Assembly: GCA_021462855.1 (NCBI GenBank)
Contig: JAJTXQ010000029.1
Span: forward strand, 1-55,505
Source: Dehalococcoidia bacterium
Lineage (GTDB): Bacteria > Chloroflexota > Dehalococcoidia > DSTF01 > JACRBR01
Direction: 5' to 3'
DNA: 55,505 nucleotides
In this document: piece by piece, positions 1-46,114 of the stretch
Position numbering within the stretch: the stretch's first letter is position 1
How the letters are laid out: the number at the start of each line of letters is the position of its first letter
Program-made: the position numbers and the translations under genes
Notes under the pieces: generated by a model
What the model was told of the DNA's origin: nothing
The model's database searches: none
What the model saw: only the letters and a program-made list of their open reading frames with translations

Positions 1-50
1 AGCGGACGACCCCGGCCTCGGTCGCCGAGACCATCATCAACCTCAACTAA
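1..50 (+). CDS. arlB: Archaellin 1, C-terminal fragment (partial)
   Basis: Reading from base 3, the frame encodes RTTPASVAETIINLN followed by TAA at 48-50. The complete archaellin ending at 829 finishes RTTPASVDETIINMN, so 13 of the last 15 residues are identical. This is therefore the end of a tandem paralogue whose body lies to the left of the window. Synonymous codon differences between the two ends show that this is an old duplication and not an assembly echo. The gene is closed by a strong hairpin terminator starting 23 bases after the stop. Confidence 0.85.
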   Translation, partial: RTTPASVAETIINLN

Positions 51-72
51 CACAGGTCCACAAGACGCACGA

Positions 73-109
73 GACGGTGCCCCTGCTCCGGCGGGGGCAC
101 CGTCGTTTT
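73..109 (+). terminator. Intrinsic terminator after archaellin 1
   Basis: A perfect 11-bp stem (bases 73-83 with 94-104) closes a 10-base loop and is followed by G and four T. It sits between the two archaellin genes. Transcription of the first filament gene should therefore stop or be reduced here, and the rest of the locus would depend on read-through or on a promoter in 110-253. A second small hairpin (GGGTGC/GCACCC, 128-141) lies in that gap. I see no convincing -35/-10 pair there. Confidence 0.85.
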
Positions 110-253
110 CCCATGCGCGGCGTGGCAGGGTGCTGGCACCCGGCCCTAACGGGTGCGCTCACCGTGCGAAAAGCGGGTGCCGCGCGCCGAATCTTCTCCG
201 AATGGAAGCCGCCCGGGATGGCGGCACGGAGTCTCACCAGGGAGGGAGTCGCA

Positions 254-829
254 ATGAAGCGCATCTGGAACCGGGCGCGAAGCCTGCGCGAGGACCAGGG
301 GATCACCGGCCTCGAGACGGCGATCGTGCTCATCGCGTTTGTCGTCGTGGCGGCGGTCTTCGCGTTCGTGGTCCTGAGCACCGGCCTCTTCAGCTCCGAG
401 CGGGGCAAGGAGACGGTGTACGCGGGCCTCGCCAAAACGCGCGGCACGATGACCCTCTCCAGCAGCGTCATCGGCACGTCCGACGGCACGGAGCTCACGG
501 GCATTGACTTCAACGTGGTCCTCGCCGCCGGCGGCGATGCGGTGAACCTCGACCCGAACGCCACGTCGAACCGCACGGTCATGAGCTACATCGACAACGC
601 GAACAACGTCGCGGACCTGACCTACACGGCATCCGACATCACGGGCGACGGTGACGGGCTGCTCGAACCCGGCGAGCTGTTCACGATCGGCATCACCGGT
701 CTTGGCGCCTACAACATCGTCGAGAACACGACGTTCACGATCGAGGTTAAGCCGCCGACGGGCTCGTACCTGGTGCTCCAGCGCACGACGCCCGCCTCGG
801 TCGACGAGACGATCATCAACATGAATTAG
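254..829 (+). CDS. arlB: Archaellin (archaeal-type flagellin), complete
   Basis: This is a 191-residue filament subunit. The N-terminus has the class III (type IV prepilin-like) signal of archaellins: a basic leader, then REDQG, cleavage after Gly16, and a mature start ITGLETAIVLIAF with a long hydrophobic helix to about residue 45 that would form the filament core. The rest is a beta-rich globular domain with Thr, Gly and Asp-rich loops, as expected for the exposed part. ATG 254 is chosen because GGGAGGGAG precedes it at good spacing and it begins the basic leader. It needs a PibD/ArlK-type prepilin peptidase, which is not in this window. It is the second of two tandem archaellins and is followed by the arlCDE-like gene. 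Family assignment is strong from the N-terminus; the globular domain is divergent. Confidence 0.88.
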   Translation: MKRIWNRARSLREDQGITGLETAIVLIAFVVVAAVFAFVVLSTGLFSSERGKETVYAGLAKTRGTMTLSSSVIGTSDGTELTGIDFNVVLAAGGDAVNLDPNATSNRTVMSYIDNANNVADLTYTASDITGDGDGLLEPGELFTIGITGLGAYNIVENTTFTIEVKPPTGSYLVLQRTTPASVDETIINMN

Positions 830-906
830 TCCGTCGCCGGCGGACGGCGGCGGCGGGTCGTCCGGCGGCGGGCGACCGGCACCGATCTTCGAAAGGCAGG
901 AATGCC

Positions 907-1554
907 GTGGAAGCCCAGCAGCTGGCATCGAAGGTAGCGCAACTCGAAACGCGCGTCGCTACGCTCGAGGACGAGGGCAAGATCATCAAAGGTGAGGTGA
1001 AGCAGATCCTCACCGAGATCCGCAGCGCCATCCTCGTGCGCGATAACCCGTTCGAGGGCGCCGGCGACGTCCGCGCGCCGCAGCCTGCCGAGACGCACGT
1101 GGCCGCGCCGCAGGTCGTCGTCGTGCACGAGCCGGCGAAGCCCTCGCCTGCGCCAGACCAGCCGCACGCGGCCACGCCGCCCGCGCCAGAAGCGCCGCCG
1201 AAGGAGCCGATCATGCTCAGGCCGCAGCCGGCCGCCGCAGTAGCACTGGCGCCGCTCCCCGAACCGGAGCAGCCACAGTGGAGCTTGCTGACGATCGCCG
1301 GGCTGTCCGCCTGGGCGGAAGACGCGATGCGCCGCCTCGGCGCGCTGCGGCTGGAGATCCTGCTCGACATGTGCCAGGCAGCCGGCCACCTGACGCCGGA
1401 GGCGCGCCAGGCGCTGTCGCGGATCACCGAGCTCGACCTGCCGGAGCCGGCGGCCCAACCCTCGAACAACGAGACGGTCGTCATCCTCCGCCAGCTCGAA
1501 GCGCTGGTGCACGACGGCGATGGCATCGACGGCCGGCTGCAGACGCGCGCGTAA
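907..1554 (+). CDS. ArlC/D/E-like archaellum switch/adaptor protein
   Basis: This is a 215-residue soluble protein with a GTG start preceded by AAAGGCAGG. Residues 1-45 form a coiled coil (regular Leu/Val heptads), residues 52-122 are a Pro/Ala-rich linker, and residues 124-180 form a helical domain (WSLLTIAGLSAW, then LRLEILLDMC and HLTPEARQALSRI) that resembles the conserved C-terminal FlaD/FlaE domain. In archaea ArlC, D and E form the cytosolic switch ring linking chemotaxis input to the motor. One protein with a coiled coil plus a D/E-type domain suggests a fused or minimal version. Its position between archaellin and ArlG/ArlF supports the call. The sequence similarity is modest, so the label rests on architecture and context together. 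Confidence 0.65.
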   Translation: MEAQQLASKVAQLETRVATLEDEGKIIKGEVKQILTEIRSAILVRDNPFEGAGDVRAPQPAETHVAAPQVVVVHEPAKPSPAPDQPHAATPPAPEAPPKEPIMLRPQPAAAVALAPLPEPEQPQWSLLTIAGLSAWAEDAMRRLGALRLEILLDMCQAAGHLTPEARQALSRITELDLPEPAAQPSNNETVVILRQLEALVHDGDGIDGRLQTRA

Positions 1555-1582
1555 CGACACCGGCCACTGAAGGAGCGGCGAC

Positions 1583-2059
1583 ATCGACAAGGCAATCACC
1601 ACGATCATGCTGACCATTGCGGCGATCGTCTCGATCGTGGCGGTGGTGAACGCCGTGCTTCCTTCCGTCGGCCGCACGAGCGGTGCGCTGATCTCGGCGT
1701 CCAACGTGGTCGAGGACCGCATCGCCAGCCAGATCGAGATCGTGCACGCCACCGGCGAGGACGGCGACCCCGACGCGAGCGTATGGGTCAAGAACACCGG
1801 CGCGTCCACGATCGCGCCGCTCACGCGCGTCGACGTGTTCTTCGGGCCGGCCGGCGACTTCCAGCGCGTGCCGTACGGCGGCGCCGGCTGCACCGCTCCC
1901 TGCTGGGAATACACGATCGAGAACGCGACCGACTGGGAGCCGACATCGACGGTCAACATCGTCGTGCACGCCGACACCAACCTGGCGACCGGCACGACCT
2001 ACTACGTGAAAGTGGTGATGCCCAACGGCATCGCCGATTCCAAGTTCTTCACGGTCTAG
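1583..2059 (+). CDS. arlG: ArlG/ArlF-family archaellum stator protein (ArlG-like)
   Basis: This 158-residue protein has one N-terminal membrane helix (TIMLTIAAIVSIVAVVNAVL) and a beta-sandwich ectodomain with the phrase VWVKNTGASTI, then RVDVFFG, typical of the ArlF/ArlG fold. In archaea these proteins form the static part that anchors the motor outside the membrane. The first ATG in frame is at 1607, but a clean AAGGAG at 1570-1575 lies seven bases before an in-frame ATC at 1583 and 31 bases before the ATG. Starting at ATC also gives a short charged end (M-D-K) ahead of the helix, so I annotate a rare AUC start; 1607 is the alternative. Which of the two stator genes is G and which is F is uncertain. 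Confidence 0.65.
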   Translation: MDKAITTIMLTIAAIVSIVAVVNAVLPSVGRTSGALISASNVVEDRIASQIEIVHATGEDGDPDASVWVKNTGASTIAPLTRVDVFFGPAGDFQRVPYGGAGCTAPCWEYTIENATDWEPTSTVNIVVHADTNLATGTTYYVKVVMPNGIADSKFFTV

Positions 2060-2071
2060 CGGAGAGGACGC

Positions 2072-2581
2072 ATGGAGAGCGGCCTGCCTGCGCTGATGAT
2101 CGCCGCCATCATGATGCTCTCTACCGTCATGATGGCTCGCGGCGGCTACCTGGGCGCCGACTCGATCGGCCAATCCCTGCGTGAGTCCGAGGCGCGTTAC
2201 GGCCAGCAGAACCGCACCGGCCTGACCGTGACCAACGCGACGGTCGACGGCACGGGCGCCAACATCACGATCAGCATCCGCAACGACGGCGCGACGCCGA
2301 TCGCCGACTTCAGCGCCATGGACGTCGTGGTGCAGTACTTCGACGAGACGGGCACGCGCCGCGACACGTGGCTCCCGTACACGTCCGGCGCGCTCGCCTC
2401 GAACACGTGGACGGCCACGGCGTTCGGCAACGACGTGTTCGAGCCCGGCATCCTCAACGGCGGCGAGACGATGGACGTTGCGATCCGCGTCAACCCCGTC
2501 GTCGGCCCGGCGACCACGAACTGGGCGACGATCGGCACCGAGCGCGGCGTCACAGTCCAGACGTACTTCAACAGGCCGTAG
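2072..2581 (+). CDS. arlF: ArlF-family archaellum stator protein (ArlF-like)
   Basis: This 169-residue protein has an N-terminal hydrophobic helix (residues 5-22) followed by an extracytoplasmic beta domain. ITISIRNDGATPI, MDVVVQYF and FEPGILNGGETMDVAIRV recall the ArlF/ArlG sandwich (strand, KN-x-G turn, late PGE/GGE turn). Archaeal ArlF binds the S-layer and acts with ArlG as the stator. It starts 13 bases after the previous stop with GGAGAGGAC upstream and ends two bases before arlJ, so it is clearly in the same operon. The F/G assignment is by analogy only. If this bacterium lacks an S-layer, the outer partner would have to be something else, such as peptidoglycan. Confidence 0.65.
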   Translation: MESGLPALMIAAIMMLSTVMMARGGYLGADSIGQSLRESEARYGQQNRTGLTVTNATVDGTGANITISIRNDGATPIADFSAMDVVVQYFDETGTRRDTWLPYTSGALASNTWTATAFGNDVFEPGILNGGETMDVAIRVNPVVGPATTNWATIGTERGVTVQTYFNRP

Positions 2582-2583
2582 CG

Positions 2584-4179
2584 ATGGCCATCTTCACGCG
2601 ATTCATGCCCGGTTCGACAAAAGGCAGCCCGCGCAGCGCGGCCGTCGAGGACGCGGCCAACTGGCAGCGCGCCACCTCGCTCTTTCGCCCCGAGCCGATG
2701 GAGTACGACCTTGTCGCGCAGCTGACGTACATGTCCGCCCTGGCGACGGCGAACGTCGGACGCGAGAACCTGTTCCAGAAGACCGCCGAGCTCGGCTACT
2801 CGACCTCGGGCTATTTCCAGCGCGTGCACCTGGTGGCGCAACGGCTGAACTACGACTACGCGCGCGCCTGCCAGCTCGTCGCCGACGCGACGGAGAACGA
2901 GGCGGTGCGCAGCCTGCTGCTCCGCTTCTCGAGCTCCCTTTCGTCGGGTGAGCACGAGTCGGTGTTCCTGGCGCGCGAGACGGAGATCCAGCTCGAACAG
3001 TACTCGCGCAAATACGAGCGCGACCTGGAGTCGCTGCGCAAGTGGACCGACGCGTACGTCGCGCTCATGGTCTCGGTGACGCTCGTCGTCGTCGTCTCCA
3101 TGGTGTCGATGATGATCTACTCCGTCGGCACCGTCTTCATCCTCGGGCTGGCGTTCATGATGATCGCCATCGCCGCACTCGGCGACTGGGTCATCTACCG
3201 CACCGCGCCCGTCGAACCAAAGACGCACCGCCGCCGCGAGAAATCGAAAACGCAGGACCAGATGTTCGCCGTGGCGAAGATCCTGCTGCCGGTGGGCGCA
3301 GTGCTGGGCGCGGCGGTCGCGCTGATCTTCAGCGTCGGCGCCGGCCTCGTCGCCGCGGCCGTCGCGATCGCGCCCGTCGGCCTGCTGGCGTTCATCGACG
3401 ACAAGCGCATCGACCAGCAGGACCGCGACCTGTCGACGTTCCTGCGCTCGCTCGGCGCGATCGTCGGCGCCATCGGCACGACCGTGACCGAGGGCATGGA
3501 GCGCGTGAACCAGCGCTCGCTCGCATCGCTCGAGCAGGGCGTGCGGCGGCTGCACATCCGCCTGCGGTCGGGCATCCGCCCCGACCTGTGCTGGGATCGC
3601 TTCGTCAGCGAAACCGGCAGCGAGCTGTGCGACCGCTCGGTGTCGACGTTCTGGGACACCATCAAGCTCGGCGGCGACCCCGACCAGATCGGCTTCCTGT
3701 CATCGCTCTTCGCGCTCAAGATCTCGCTGATGCGCGAGAACCGGAAGCTCGTCTCGCAGACCTTCATGTACCTGATGGTGCCGCTGCATGCCGTGCTGAT
3801 CGGCGTCCTGCTGTTCGTGACCGAGGTCATGGTGGTGTTCGCGACGCAGCTCAACAATGTGCAGGATCAGGCGATGATCAACACGGACCCCACCGCCACC
3901 GGCGGCATCGACGTGACGAGCGTGCTCGCGTTCGCCGCGCCGAACGTCGGCTTCCTGCGGGGGTTCGCGCTCGTCGTGACCCTGTTCCTGACGGTGGTCG
4001 ACACGTGGTCGCCGCACGTGACCGCCGGCGGCCACCACCACAAGGTGTGGCTCTACGCCGCAGTGATGATGATTTTCTCGGGGGTTTGCCTGATGGGGAT
4101 TCCCCACGTTGTCGGCGGCCTGTTCGAGAGCGTGTCGGGTGGCATCGAAACCACCGCCGCCGGCCCGACGACAAACTAG
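2584..4179 (+). CDS. arlJ: Archaellum assembly platform protein ArlJ
   Basis: This 531-residue polytopic membrane protein belongs to the type II/IV secretion platform family (TadC/GspF-like) in its archaeal FlaJ form. A cytoplasmic helical domain (about 40-155) precedes membrane segments at about 158-206, a second hydrophobic pair at 230-272, a second helical T2SSF-like domain (278-390), and further membrane segments at about 393-423, 455-473 and 486-515. The two-domain layout and length match ArlJ. In archaea it couples the ArlI ATPase to filament assembly and rotation. ATG 2584 follows the ArlF stop directly. The partner ATPase ArlI and regulator ArlH, often next to arlJ in archaea, are not adjacent here. 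Confidence 0.82.
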   Translation: MAIFTRFMPGSTKGSPRSAAVEDAANWQRATSLFRPEPMEYDLVAQLTYMSALATANVGRENLFQKTAELGYSTSGYFQRVHLVAQRLNYDYARACQLVADATENEAVRSLLLRFSSSLSSGEHESVFLARETEIQLEQYSRKYERDLESLRKWTDAYVALMVSVTLVVVVSMVSMMIYSVGTVFILGLAFMMIAIAALGDWVIYRTAPVEPKTHRRREKSKTQDQMFAVAKILLPVGAVLGAAVALIFSVGAGLVAAAVAIAPVGLLAFIDDKRIDQQDRDLSTFLRSLGAIVGAIGTTVTEGMERVNQRSLASLEQGVRRLHIRLRSGIRPDLCWDRFVSETGSELCDRSVSTFWDTIKLGGDPDQIGFLSSLFALKISLMRENRKLVSQTFMYLMVPLHAVLIGVLLFVTEVMVVFATQLNNVQDQAMINTDPTATGGIDVTSVLAFAAPNVGFLRGFALVVTLFLTVVDTWSPHVTAGGHHHKVWLYAAVMMIFSGVCLMGIPHVVGGLFESVSGGIETTAAGPTTN

Positions 4180-4191
4180 GCAGGAGGCACG

Positions 4192-4689
4192 ATGCCGAAT
4201 CCATTCCGCAGGACGCCGAATGAAGGACCGCCGCATGGCGCGCTCGACGCGCCGGACGCGCGGGACGATCAGCCGCAACGGCGCCCCGGGCCAAACTGGG
4301 GCGTGTACTCGGACTACGTGCCGCAGTCGGCGCGGCCGCCCGAGTTCCAGCGTCTTGCGCCGTTCAACTTCGACGAAGAACCCGGCGACGGGCCCGACGA
4401 GGACATCGAGTTCCTCACATCGCTCGCGCGCCAGGTCGATGGGCCGCCCGCCGGTGCGCGGTCCGAACGCCGCGCGCCGCGCGTCACGCCGCCGCCCGCG
4501 CAGAACGTGTACGAGCCGATCGTACCGGCGGAGCGCGACGCCATGCAGGCGTTCCACGACTACGCCGCACGCGGCGCCGACCACACGCCGACGCCCGCCA
4601 CGCTGCGCGTCGACAGCGTCGAAATCGGCGACCTCGTCGAGGACCTCGCCGACACGATCGCCGCGCTCCGCCGGCGGCGCGCCGCCTGA
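4192..4689 (+). CDS. Unknown soluble protein in archaellum operon
   Basis: This is a 165-residue protein I do not recognise. It has no signal peptide or membrane segment. The first two thirds are Pro, Arg and Asp-rich and probably disordered. A short acidic patch (FDEEPGDGPDEDIEFL, about 63-78) and a C-terminal segment with DSVEIGDLVEDLADTIAALRRRR look helical. AGGAGG precedes ATG 4192. It lies 12 bases after arlJ and six before the amidase, so it is probably co-transcribed with the archaellum. Its place suggests a cytosolic accessory or adaptor role for the motor, but that is inference from position only. Confidence 0.75.
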   Translation: MPNPFRRTPNEGPPHGALDAPDARDDQPQRRPGPNWGVYSDYVPQSARPPEFQRLAPFNFDEEPGDGPDEDIEFLTSLARQVDGPPAGARSERRAPRVTPPPAQNVYEPIVPAERDAMQAFHDYAARGADHTPTPATLRVDSVEIGDLVEDLADTIAALRRRRAA

Positions 4690-4695
4690 CCCGCC

Positions 4696-5703
4696 ATGTC
4701 GCGCTGGGCGTACGGCGTCCTCGTCACCGCAATGGTGCTCTGGTCGGCGATGACCGTCGTCGCCGGCTGGTACGCGCTGCGCGGCGGCGGCGACGACGCC
4801 TCGGCCGCGGCCGATACGCGCCCGTCGGACCCCGAGGCGCCAGGCGATGCCCCGGCGCTCACGGGCCGCGAGATCATCACGCGCCCGGGTGCGCGCTCAC
4901 CGGAGGCAGCCGCCGAGGCGACGCCCCGGCCGGCGACCGGGCGCATCGAGCCGGTGCCGGCGTACGCGCTCGGCGCCGGCGGCGACACGCGCGTACGCTC
5001 GCTCGATGTAGAGGGGCCACGCCCGCAAGAAGCCGCGCCGCGCGCGAAGGGCGTCGTGGTGCTCGACCCGGGCCACGGCCGCGGCGACCCCGGCGCCGTC
5101 GCGCACTTCGATGACGGCTCGTACTACACCGAGGCGGAGTCGAACCTCACCAACGCCGAAATGCTGCGCGACCGCCTCGTGGCGATGGGCTACGACGTGT
5201 ACCTGACGCGCGAGGGCGCGGGACGCGGGCCCGGAGGGCCGTTACCGCGCCAGTTCATCGTGTCCGACCTGTTCGCCCGCGTTGCGCTCGCCCGCGCGGT
5301 GGAAGCCGATGTGTATCTCGCGCTCCACGGCAACGGCGCCACCGTGGGCTCGATCTCCGGGCCGGAGACGTGGTACTGCGGCAAACACGAGGAGGGCGCG
5401 GCCAACGAGCGGCTCGCCACCGTGGTCCAGCAGGCGATGGTCGACGCCCTCCACGAGTACGGCTACGACCCGCCGGACCGCGGCATCAAGGAGGACGCGT
5501 CGGCTCACCACTCCGGGGGCTTCTGCCAGTTCGTCGTCACGCGCGAAACGCCCGTGCCGGCGGCGCTGCTCGAGTTCCTGTTCCTCTCGAACGCCGCCGA
5601 TGCGCAGGTGCTGATCGACCCGCGCGCGCACGAGTTGCTCGCCGACCACCTGGTGCGCGCGCTCGACGAGTTCATGCAGGAGCGGGGCGCCGAAGGCGAT
5701 TGA
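4696..5703 (+). CDS. Membrane-anchored N-acetylmuramoyl-L-alanine amidase
   Basis: This 335-residue zinc amidase (Amidase_3 fold) cleaves the bond between MurNAc and the stem peptide. Residues 7-27 form a signal-anchor helix, 28-118 are a flexible Pro/Ala-rich linker, and the catalytic domain follows: VVVLDPGHG (His127), TEAESNL (Glu148), LALHGNG (His211) and ALLEFLFLSN (Glu293) match the zinc ligands and catalytic Glu of AmiC/CwlV-type enzymes. It begins six bases after the unknown gene of the archaellum operon. A wall hydrolase in this operon would logically open peptidoglycan for the archaellum shaft, as dedicated hydrolases do for bacterial flagella. General cell-separation amidase is the alternative. 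Confidence 0.88.
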   Translation: MSRWAYGVLVTAMVLWSAMTVVAGWYALRGGGDDASAAADTRPSDPEAPGDAPALTGREIITRPGARSPEAAAEATPRPATGRIEPVPAYALGAGGDTRVRSLDVEGPRPQEAAPRAKGVVVLDPGHGRGDPGAVAHFDDGSYYTEAESNLTNAEMLRDRLVAMGYDVYLTREGAGRGPGGPLPRQFIVSDLFARVALARAVEADVYLALHGNGATVGSISGPETWYCGKHEEGAANERLATVVQQAMVDALHEYGYDPPDRGIKEDASAHHSGGFCQFVVTRETPVPAALLEFLFLSNAADAQVLIDPRAHELLADHLVRALDEFMQERGAEGD

Positions 5704-46039: not shown

Positions 46040-46114
46040 GCCCCCGTAGCTCAGAGGATAGAGCAGAGGTTTCCTAAACCTTGTGCGCAGGTTCGAGTCC
46101 TGCCGGGGGTACCA
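46040..46114 (+). tRNA. tRNA-Arg (anticodon CCU)
   Basis: A full cloverleaf folds here: acceptor stem GCCCCCG with CGGGGGT (one G-U), D stem GCTC/GAGC, anticodon stem GAGGT/ACCTT with loop TTCCTAA, and T arm GCAGG-TTCGAGT-CCTGC. The loop places CCT at the anticodon, so it reads AGG (Arg), a rare codon in such a GC-rich genome. The 3' CCA is encoded in DNA. Confidence 0.95.

Follow-up and report, generated by a model that had tools for sequence, protein, structure and literature searches.

Genes of the arl block

The stretch of DNA analyzed here (the window; 55,505 nucleotides) is contig C22 of a Dehalococcoidia (Chloroflexota) MAG with a size of 3.02 Mb, 97.5% completeness and 4.4% estimated contamination. 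Positions 3 - 5703 carry, all on the forward (+) strand and in this order, the tail of an archaellin gene, arlB, a gene for an ArlCDE-like protein, arlG, arlF, arlJ, a gene for an acidic protein of 165 aa and a gene for an Amidase_3 protein, with intergenic gaps of 2 - 12 bp each from arlG to the amidase gene. The region from 1 to 5703 represents the 3' portion of a genuine archaellum (arl) cluster, and the last two genes of the block, i.e., those encoding the acidic protein and the peptidoglycan amidase, are its most informative ones. A tRNA at 46040 - 46111 was the sole Rfam match across the window. In the following, G000 denotes this genome, f1 its family, and f2 to f4 other families of the same order.

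The archaellin ArlB (254 - 829, +) begins with the class III leader MKRIWNRARSLREDQG, which ends in G before ITGLE and is followed by ITGLETAIVLIAF. The protein matched PF01917 with 87.8 bits (cut-off 29.5), and its best matches among the archaella in the PDB were the group 9i5h/9sie/9sii (E = 2.5e-34), in which 9SIE and 9SII represent the archaellum of Litorilinea aerophila. With these matches to PF01917 and to archaella of solved structure, the refuting outcome that a preliminary description of this DNA had named, i.e., a better match to ordinary type IV pilins, did not occur. That description listed two archaellins with class III signals; one is the complete gene above, while the other (arlB3; 3 - 50, +) is represented in the window only by its C-terminal tail of 48 bp, i.e., the last 15 codons (RTTPASVAETIINLN) and the stop, which is cut by the contig edge and has the same C-terminus as the neighboring archaellins. 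Contig C26 of the same genome ends with two archaellins, followed by 19 codons from the start of a third. Genome G003, also from f1, carries four archaellins in tandem (locus L034) with the synteny seen here, in the order helicase, sensor protein, response regulator, four arlB genes, CDE, G, F, J, acidic protein and amidase. Because this order is found on one contig in G003, C26 and C22 are most likely neighbors that the assembler split at repeats, and the array of this genome probably comprises four archaellins. In several relatives, the genes upstream of the archaellins encode a response regulator of the LuxR type and a large protein that resembles a sensor but has no Pfam match. Contig C33 carries a prepilin peptidase gene (Peptidase_A24, 55 bits) and a lone archaellin gene (L008:7368-7919), located away from the cluster.

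The ArlCDE-like protein (907 - 1554, +), whose gene is flanked by arlB and arlG in most relatives as well, consists of an N-terminal coiled coil, a proline-rich linker and a C-terminal helical domain (AlphaFold helices 2 - 44 and 127 - 205). Searches with the window protein gave no Pfam, NCBIfam or PDB match and no fold match. PF04659 was weakly matched by 2 of its 43 relatives (best E = 0.007), which were not among the ten family members searched singly. Judged by its position, its coiled coil and helical domain and the very weak family matches, the protein is likely ArlCDE; its position and architecture fit the fused ArlC/D/E-like protein of the preliminary description, although the window protein has no database match of its own.

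ArlG (about 1595 - 2059, +) matched NF052591 (E = 1.1e-9) and ArlF (2072 - 2581, +) matched NF052590 (E = 7.7e-6), both with scores below the curated cut-offs; weak as single sequences, these stator matches became clearer when family profiles were compared with solved structures, i.e., Sulfolobus FlaG (5tug; E = 3.1e-15) and FlaF (4p94; E = 5.6e-6). The start of arlG is uncertain (1571 - 1607): the conserved IDKAITT begins at 1583, preceded by AAGGAG, with no ATG, GTG or TTG, and the first ATG, at 1607, lies eight codons past that start. For the membrane platform protein ArlJ (2584 - 4179, +), the best model was archaellar ArlJ (NF004703; 456 bits, E = 1e-136, the strict cut-off of 570 being missed). 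Three archaellar ArlJ/FlaJ models were matched in total, and no TadC/GspF equivalog was matched at E < 0.01, so that the model search places ArlJ on the archaellar side of the suggested ArlJ versus TadC/GspF comparison. Overall, the co-directional block described previously was recovered, with archaellin, ArlG, ArlF and ArlJ all confirmed on one strand, the stators and ArlJ by model searches and the stators also by solved structures.

As archaeal-type genes were found in a fragmented MAG with an estimated contamination of 4.4%, we considered whether they represent archaeal contamination of the assembly. However, ArlJ homologues occur in 55 of the 393 sampled genomes of the class and in eleven genomes of the order, in Dehalococcoidia records and beside bacterial genes. 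This linkage in independent genomes refutes contamination, to which we assign a negligible probability. The archaellin, ArlJ, ArlI, ArlH and stator matches in a Dehalococcoidia MAG bear out the presence of an archaellum in a bacterium. The earlier remark that archaella had probably already been noted in some Chloroflexota holds too: those of Chloroflexota, Dehalococcoidia included, have been published with a cryo-EM structure, swimming and an ArlIJ tree in which they are nested inside archaeal ones, in a paper that portrays the archaellum as a complete rotary machine for motility that bacteria received from archaea (PMC12488501), and archaellum genes have been noted in SAR202 isolates (PMC10444878). 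The presence of an archaellum alone is hence not new for this phylum.

Location of arlH and arlI

The window encodes neither ArlH nor ArlI, both of which are indispensable for a motor. Their genes are intact on contig C14, where arlH, arlI and a gene for a second acidic protein follow one another next to acyl-CoA metabolism genes (neighbors read from the sequence). ArlI matched the archaellum-motor model NF058587 with 631 bits (cut-off 550), scored 420 bits against Sulfolobus FlaI as compared to 151 bits against CpaF (a margin of about 270 bits) and keeps its Walker motifs. The KaiC-like ArlH matched NF004723 with 259 bits (cut-off 194) and NF052589 with 180 bits (cut-off 215).

In f2 to f4 and in most of the class, arlH-arlI immediately precede arlJ or share its cluster. 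Within f1, arlH-arlI and arlJ are on different contigs in G000, G003, G004 and G006, with minimum distances of 177 kb in G003 and 40 kb in G004; arlHI lie just upstream in divergent orientation in G002, and no arlI was found in G001 (84% complete). A published survey reported that arl genes are always in one locus (PMC12488501); relative to that survey, the separation of arlH-arlI from arlJ in f1 is new, and the machinery genes here are, unlike in the Chloroflexota description, not all in one locus, a property that does not define archaella generally. Measured against the survey, the absence of arlH and arlI from the locus would also fit a decaying or non-rotary remnant that no longer works. 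Yet another contig carries both genes intact and with their motifs conserved, the same split recurs in G003, G004 and G006, and G002 has the divergent arrangement, which makes decay very improbable. We thus reject this reading, given the intact arlHI on C14, along with contamination, given the linkage in independent genomes. The core parts, i.e., ArlB, ArlI, ArlH, ArlJ, ArlG, ArlF and the prepilin peptidase, are all present and intact in the genome.

Two further observations concern motor genes elsewhere in the class. A tandem pair of arlI genes precedes arlJ in loci L066, L067, L080, L085, L087, L088 and L091. The Walker A and B motifs are intact in most, and the tree points to two or more independent duplications; PMC12488501 makes no mention of an archaellum with a second motor ATPase. 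Genome G126 carries two arl loci (L074 and L098) with different gene orders (H-I-J vs G-F-J-CDE-H-I), which reflect either two systems or contamination.

Proteins encoded downstream of arlJ

The acidic protein that follows ArlJ (4192 - 4689, +; 165 aa) is mostly disordered in the AlphaFold model, with three short helices (70 - 83, 119 - 127 and 145 - 164), the last of which, at the C-terminus, is predicted confidently. It had no Pfam or NCBIfam family match and is undescribed. Its conserved C-terminal motif, VEIGDLVEDLADTIAAL, was traced by a motif scan, a profile and a blind test, and the pattern LLxxF ... V(D/E)xxDLLxEL is common to the copy on C14 (p140), the post-arlJ proteins of f2 and those of other families. 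As alignment quality is low beyond the C-terminal region (mean identity 13%), our conclusions rest on motif position and blind ranking. We trained a profile on f1 and f2 alone and applied it blind to 47 loci of other families, with 40 - 214 ORFs ranked per locus. The ORF directly after arlJ ranked first in 34 of these loci; as each locus has one or two ORFs in the slot, about one first rank would be expected by chance. Because the loci are related to each other, the corresponding binomial value does not amount to a formal probability. In two loci where arlI is the last gene of the cluster (L098 in G126 and L100 in G380), the top profile match was the ORF after arlI. Overall, the acidic protein follows arlJ in most Dehalococcoidia arl loci. 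It starts with a membrane helix in several other families, as read from the sequence, and in f70 the acidic motif, a membrane segment and two LysM domains are fused in one protein.

One explanation for these data is a coupling of motor and wall by the acidic protein, as we infer from gene order and from one type of fusion, the two observations that tie it to ArlJ and the wall. Alternatively, rather than a wall tether it could be a chemotaxis or motor-switch adaptor that functionally replaces archaeal CheF, as its gene adjoins arlJ or arlI, both of them motor genes, in most loci and as CheF is absent in Chloroflexota, where another adaptor has been predicted (PMC12488501). On the other hand, none of the 9 genomes of f1 to f3 that were searched, this genome among them, yielded a chemoreceptor (PF00015), yet f1 and f2 have the protein, and the f70 fusion with a membrane segment and two LysM domains speaks against a switch adaptor; chemoreceptors are present in f4 and f16. 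We consider the chemotaxis or motor-switch reading unlikely.

The last gene of the block (4696 - 5703, +) encodes an N-acetylmuramoyl-L-alanine amidase with an N-terminal hydrophobic membrane anchor, which matched Amidase_3 (PF01520) with 108.5 bits and is the only copy in the genome. Residues H127, E146, H211 and E293, which correspond to the zinc and catalytic residues of the family, are invariant across 8 relatives. Amidase_3 adjoins the arlJ region in all 6 archaellated genomes of f1 and in both of f2, with about 40% identity between the two families; this adjacency may go back to one ancestral event. A literature search for archaellum and amidase found nothing on such a link, and PMC12488501 does not mention an amidase.

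An amidase that is the sole Amidase_3 copy in every archaellated f1 and f2 genome could be a housekeeping cell-separation enzyme, adjacent by chance to an ordinary Chloroflexota archaellum and unrelated to motility, particularly as wall hydrolases are usually needed for division. However, Amidase_3 is present in only 72 of the 393 genomes of the class, which argues against a general requirement, and the block retains the amidase even where arlHI have moved away. Two f1 genomes without arlJ also lack Amidase_3, a joint absence that is weak evidence because these genomes are 72 - 76% complete and the genes are neighbors. Moreover, in other families the same slot is filled by unrelated wall enzymes or LysM proteins, i.e., an M23 protein with a weak SLT match (G014) or an SLT protein (G015) in f4, a LysM protein followed by an M23 peptidase in f36, and the LysM fusion in f70. 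A motif scan of both strands of 55 loci found credible wall-active proteins only about 0.3 - 0.7 kb downstream of arlJ and on the same strand; the strict patterns missed L041 and L081, both of which Pfam placed at the same end. The slot holds no wall enzyme in the archaellated families f51, f16, f47 and f80 or in f3 of the same order, and its other occupants include a secreted TIG/Ig protein (f16) and a prepilin peptidase (f69), while f51 has no co-directional gene there. The TIG/Ig-domain protein of f16 (570 - 590 aa; L044:6473-8233, L064:12159-13922 and further loci) follows the acidic protein and is possibly a surface or bushing component. On balance, a housekeeping role by chance adjacency seems rather doubtful, and we infer instead that the amidase acts for the archaellum. 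The remark of the preliminary description on unusual partners holds as well, although it did not name the acidic protein or the amidase.

A candidate wall-passage module and its relation to known systems

This genome encodes peptidoglycan synthesis, with a dcw cluster on contig C6 (rsmH, ftsI, murF, mraY, murD, ftsW, murG, murC, ddlB, ftsA and ftsZ), and has no match to PilO (PF04350). The best explanation of the combined data, with a probability of roughly 0.6, is that this peptidoglycan-making Dehalococcoidia bacterium has a complete, probably functional rotary archaellum with a bacterial wall-crossing module. By homology, ArlB subunits would be processed by the prepilin peptidase encoded on C33 and would polymerize on ArlJ, with ArlI providing the drive and ArlH the regulation (both encoded on C14). 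The amidase, anchored outside the membrane, would cut peptidoglycan locally to let the stator and filament pass, as FlgJ, a flagellar wall hydrolase dedicated to the passage of a rotary appendage, does for flagella. A dedicated wall hydrolase would be the simplest answer to wall passage without PilO, and it is the solution used by flagella. In the weakest step of this scheme, the acidic protein, as an adaptor in the cytoplasm or at the membrane, would link the ArlI/ArlJ platform with partners bound to the wall.

More tentatively, and at somewhat less than even odds, we propose that on entering peptidoglycan-making bacteria the archaellum gained a wall-passage module, consisting of the conserved, disordered post-arlJ adaptor and, next to it, interchangeable wall hydrolases (amidase, lytic transglycosylase or M23 peptidase) or LysM anchors. 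If true, such a module would account for the operation of a rotary machine of archaeal origin across a bacterial wall in hosts that lack PilN and PilO. PilN/PilO have been proposed as the anchoring of the L. aerophila archaellum, while anchoring in wall-making members without them was called unknown (PMC13319060); the 3' end of arl loci gives named candidate genes for this step, and the conserved, undescribed acidic protein is directly testable. Among Chloroflexota, SAR202 are without peptidoglycan synthesis (PMC10444878).

A plasmid search for archaeal comparison yielded four haloarchaeal records, and the two examined were not archaellum clusters. The ArlCDE-like protein resembles the euryarchaeal ArlCDE switch proteins in gene position and in its coiled coil and helical domain, but is a single fused protein whose sequence hardly matches PF04659. 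With the archaella of L. aerophila and other Chloroflexota, the system shares the arl2-type order B-CDE-G-F and the archaellin, ArlI, ArlJ and ArlH families; it differs from them (PMC12488501) in the separation of arlHI from arlJ, in the acidic protein and amidase, and in that no PilO was found. As in the PilN/PilO-LysM proposal (PMC13319060), a partner acting on the cell wall is encoded near the arl genes for passage through peptidoglycan; in L. aerophila this is a PilO-LysM protein near the locus, whereas here it is a hydrolase directly downstream of arlJ. In its inferred function, i.e., wall hydrolysis for the passage of a rotary appendage, the amidase would parallel FlgJ, although it belongs to an unrelated enzyme family and would serve an unrelated appendage.
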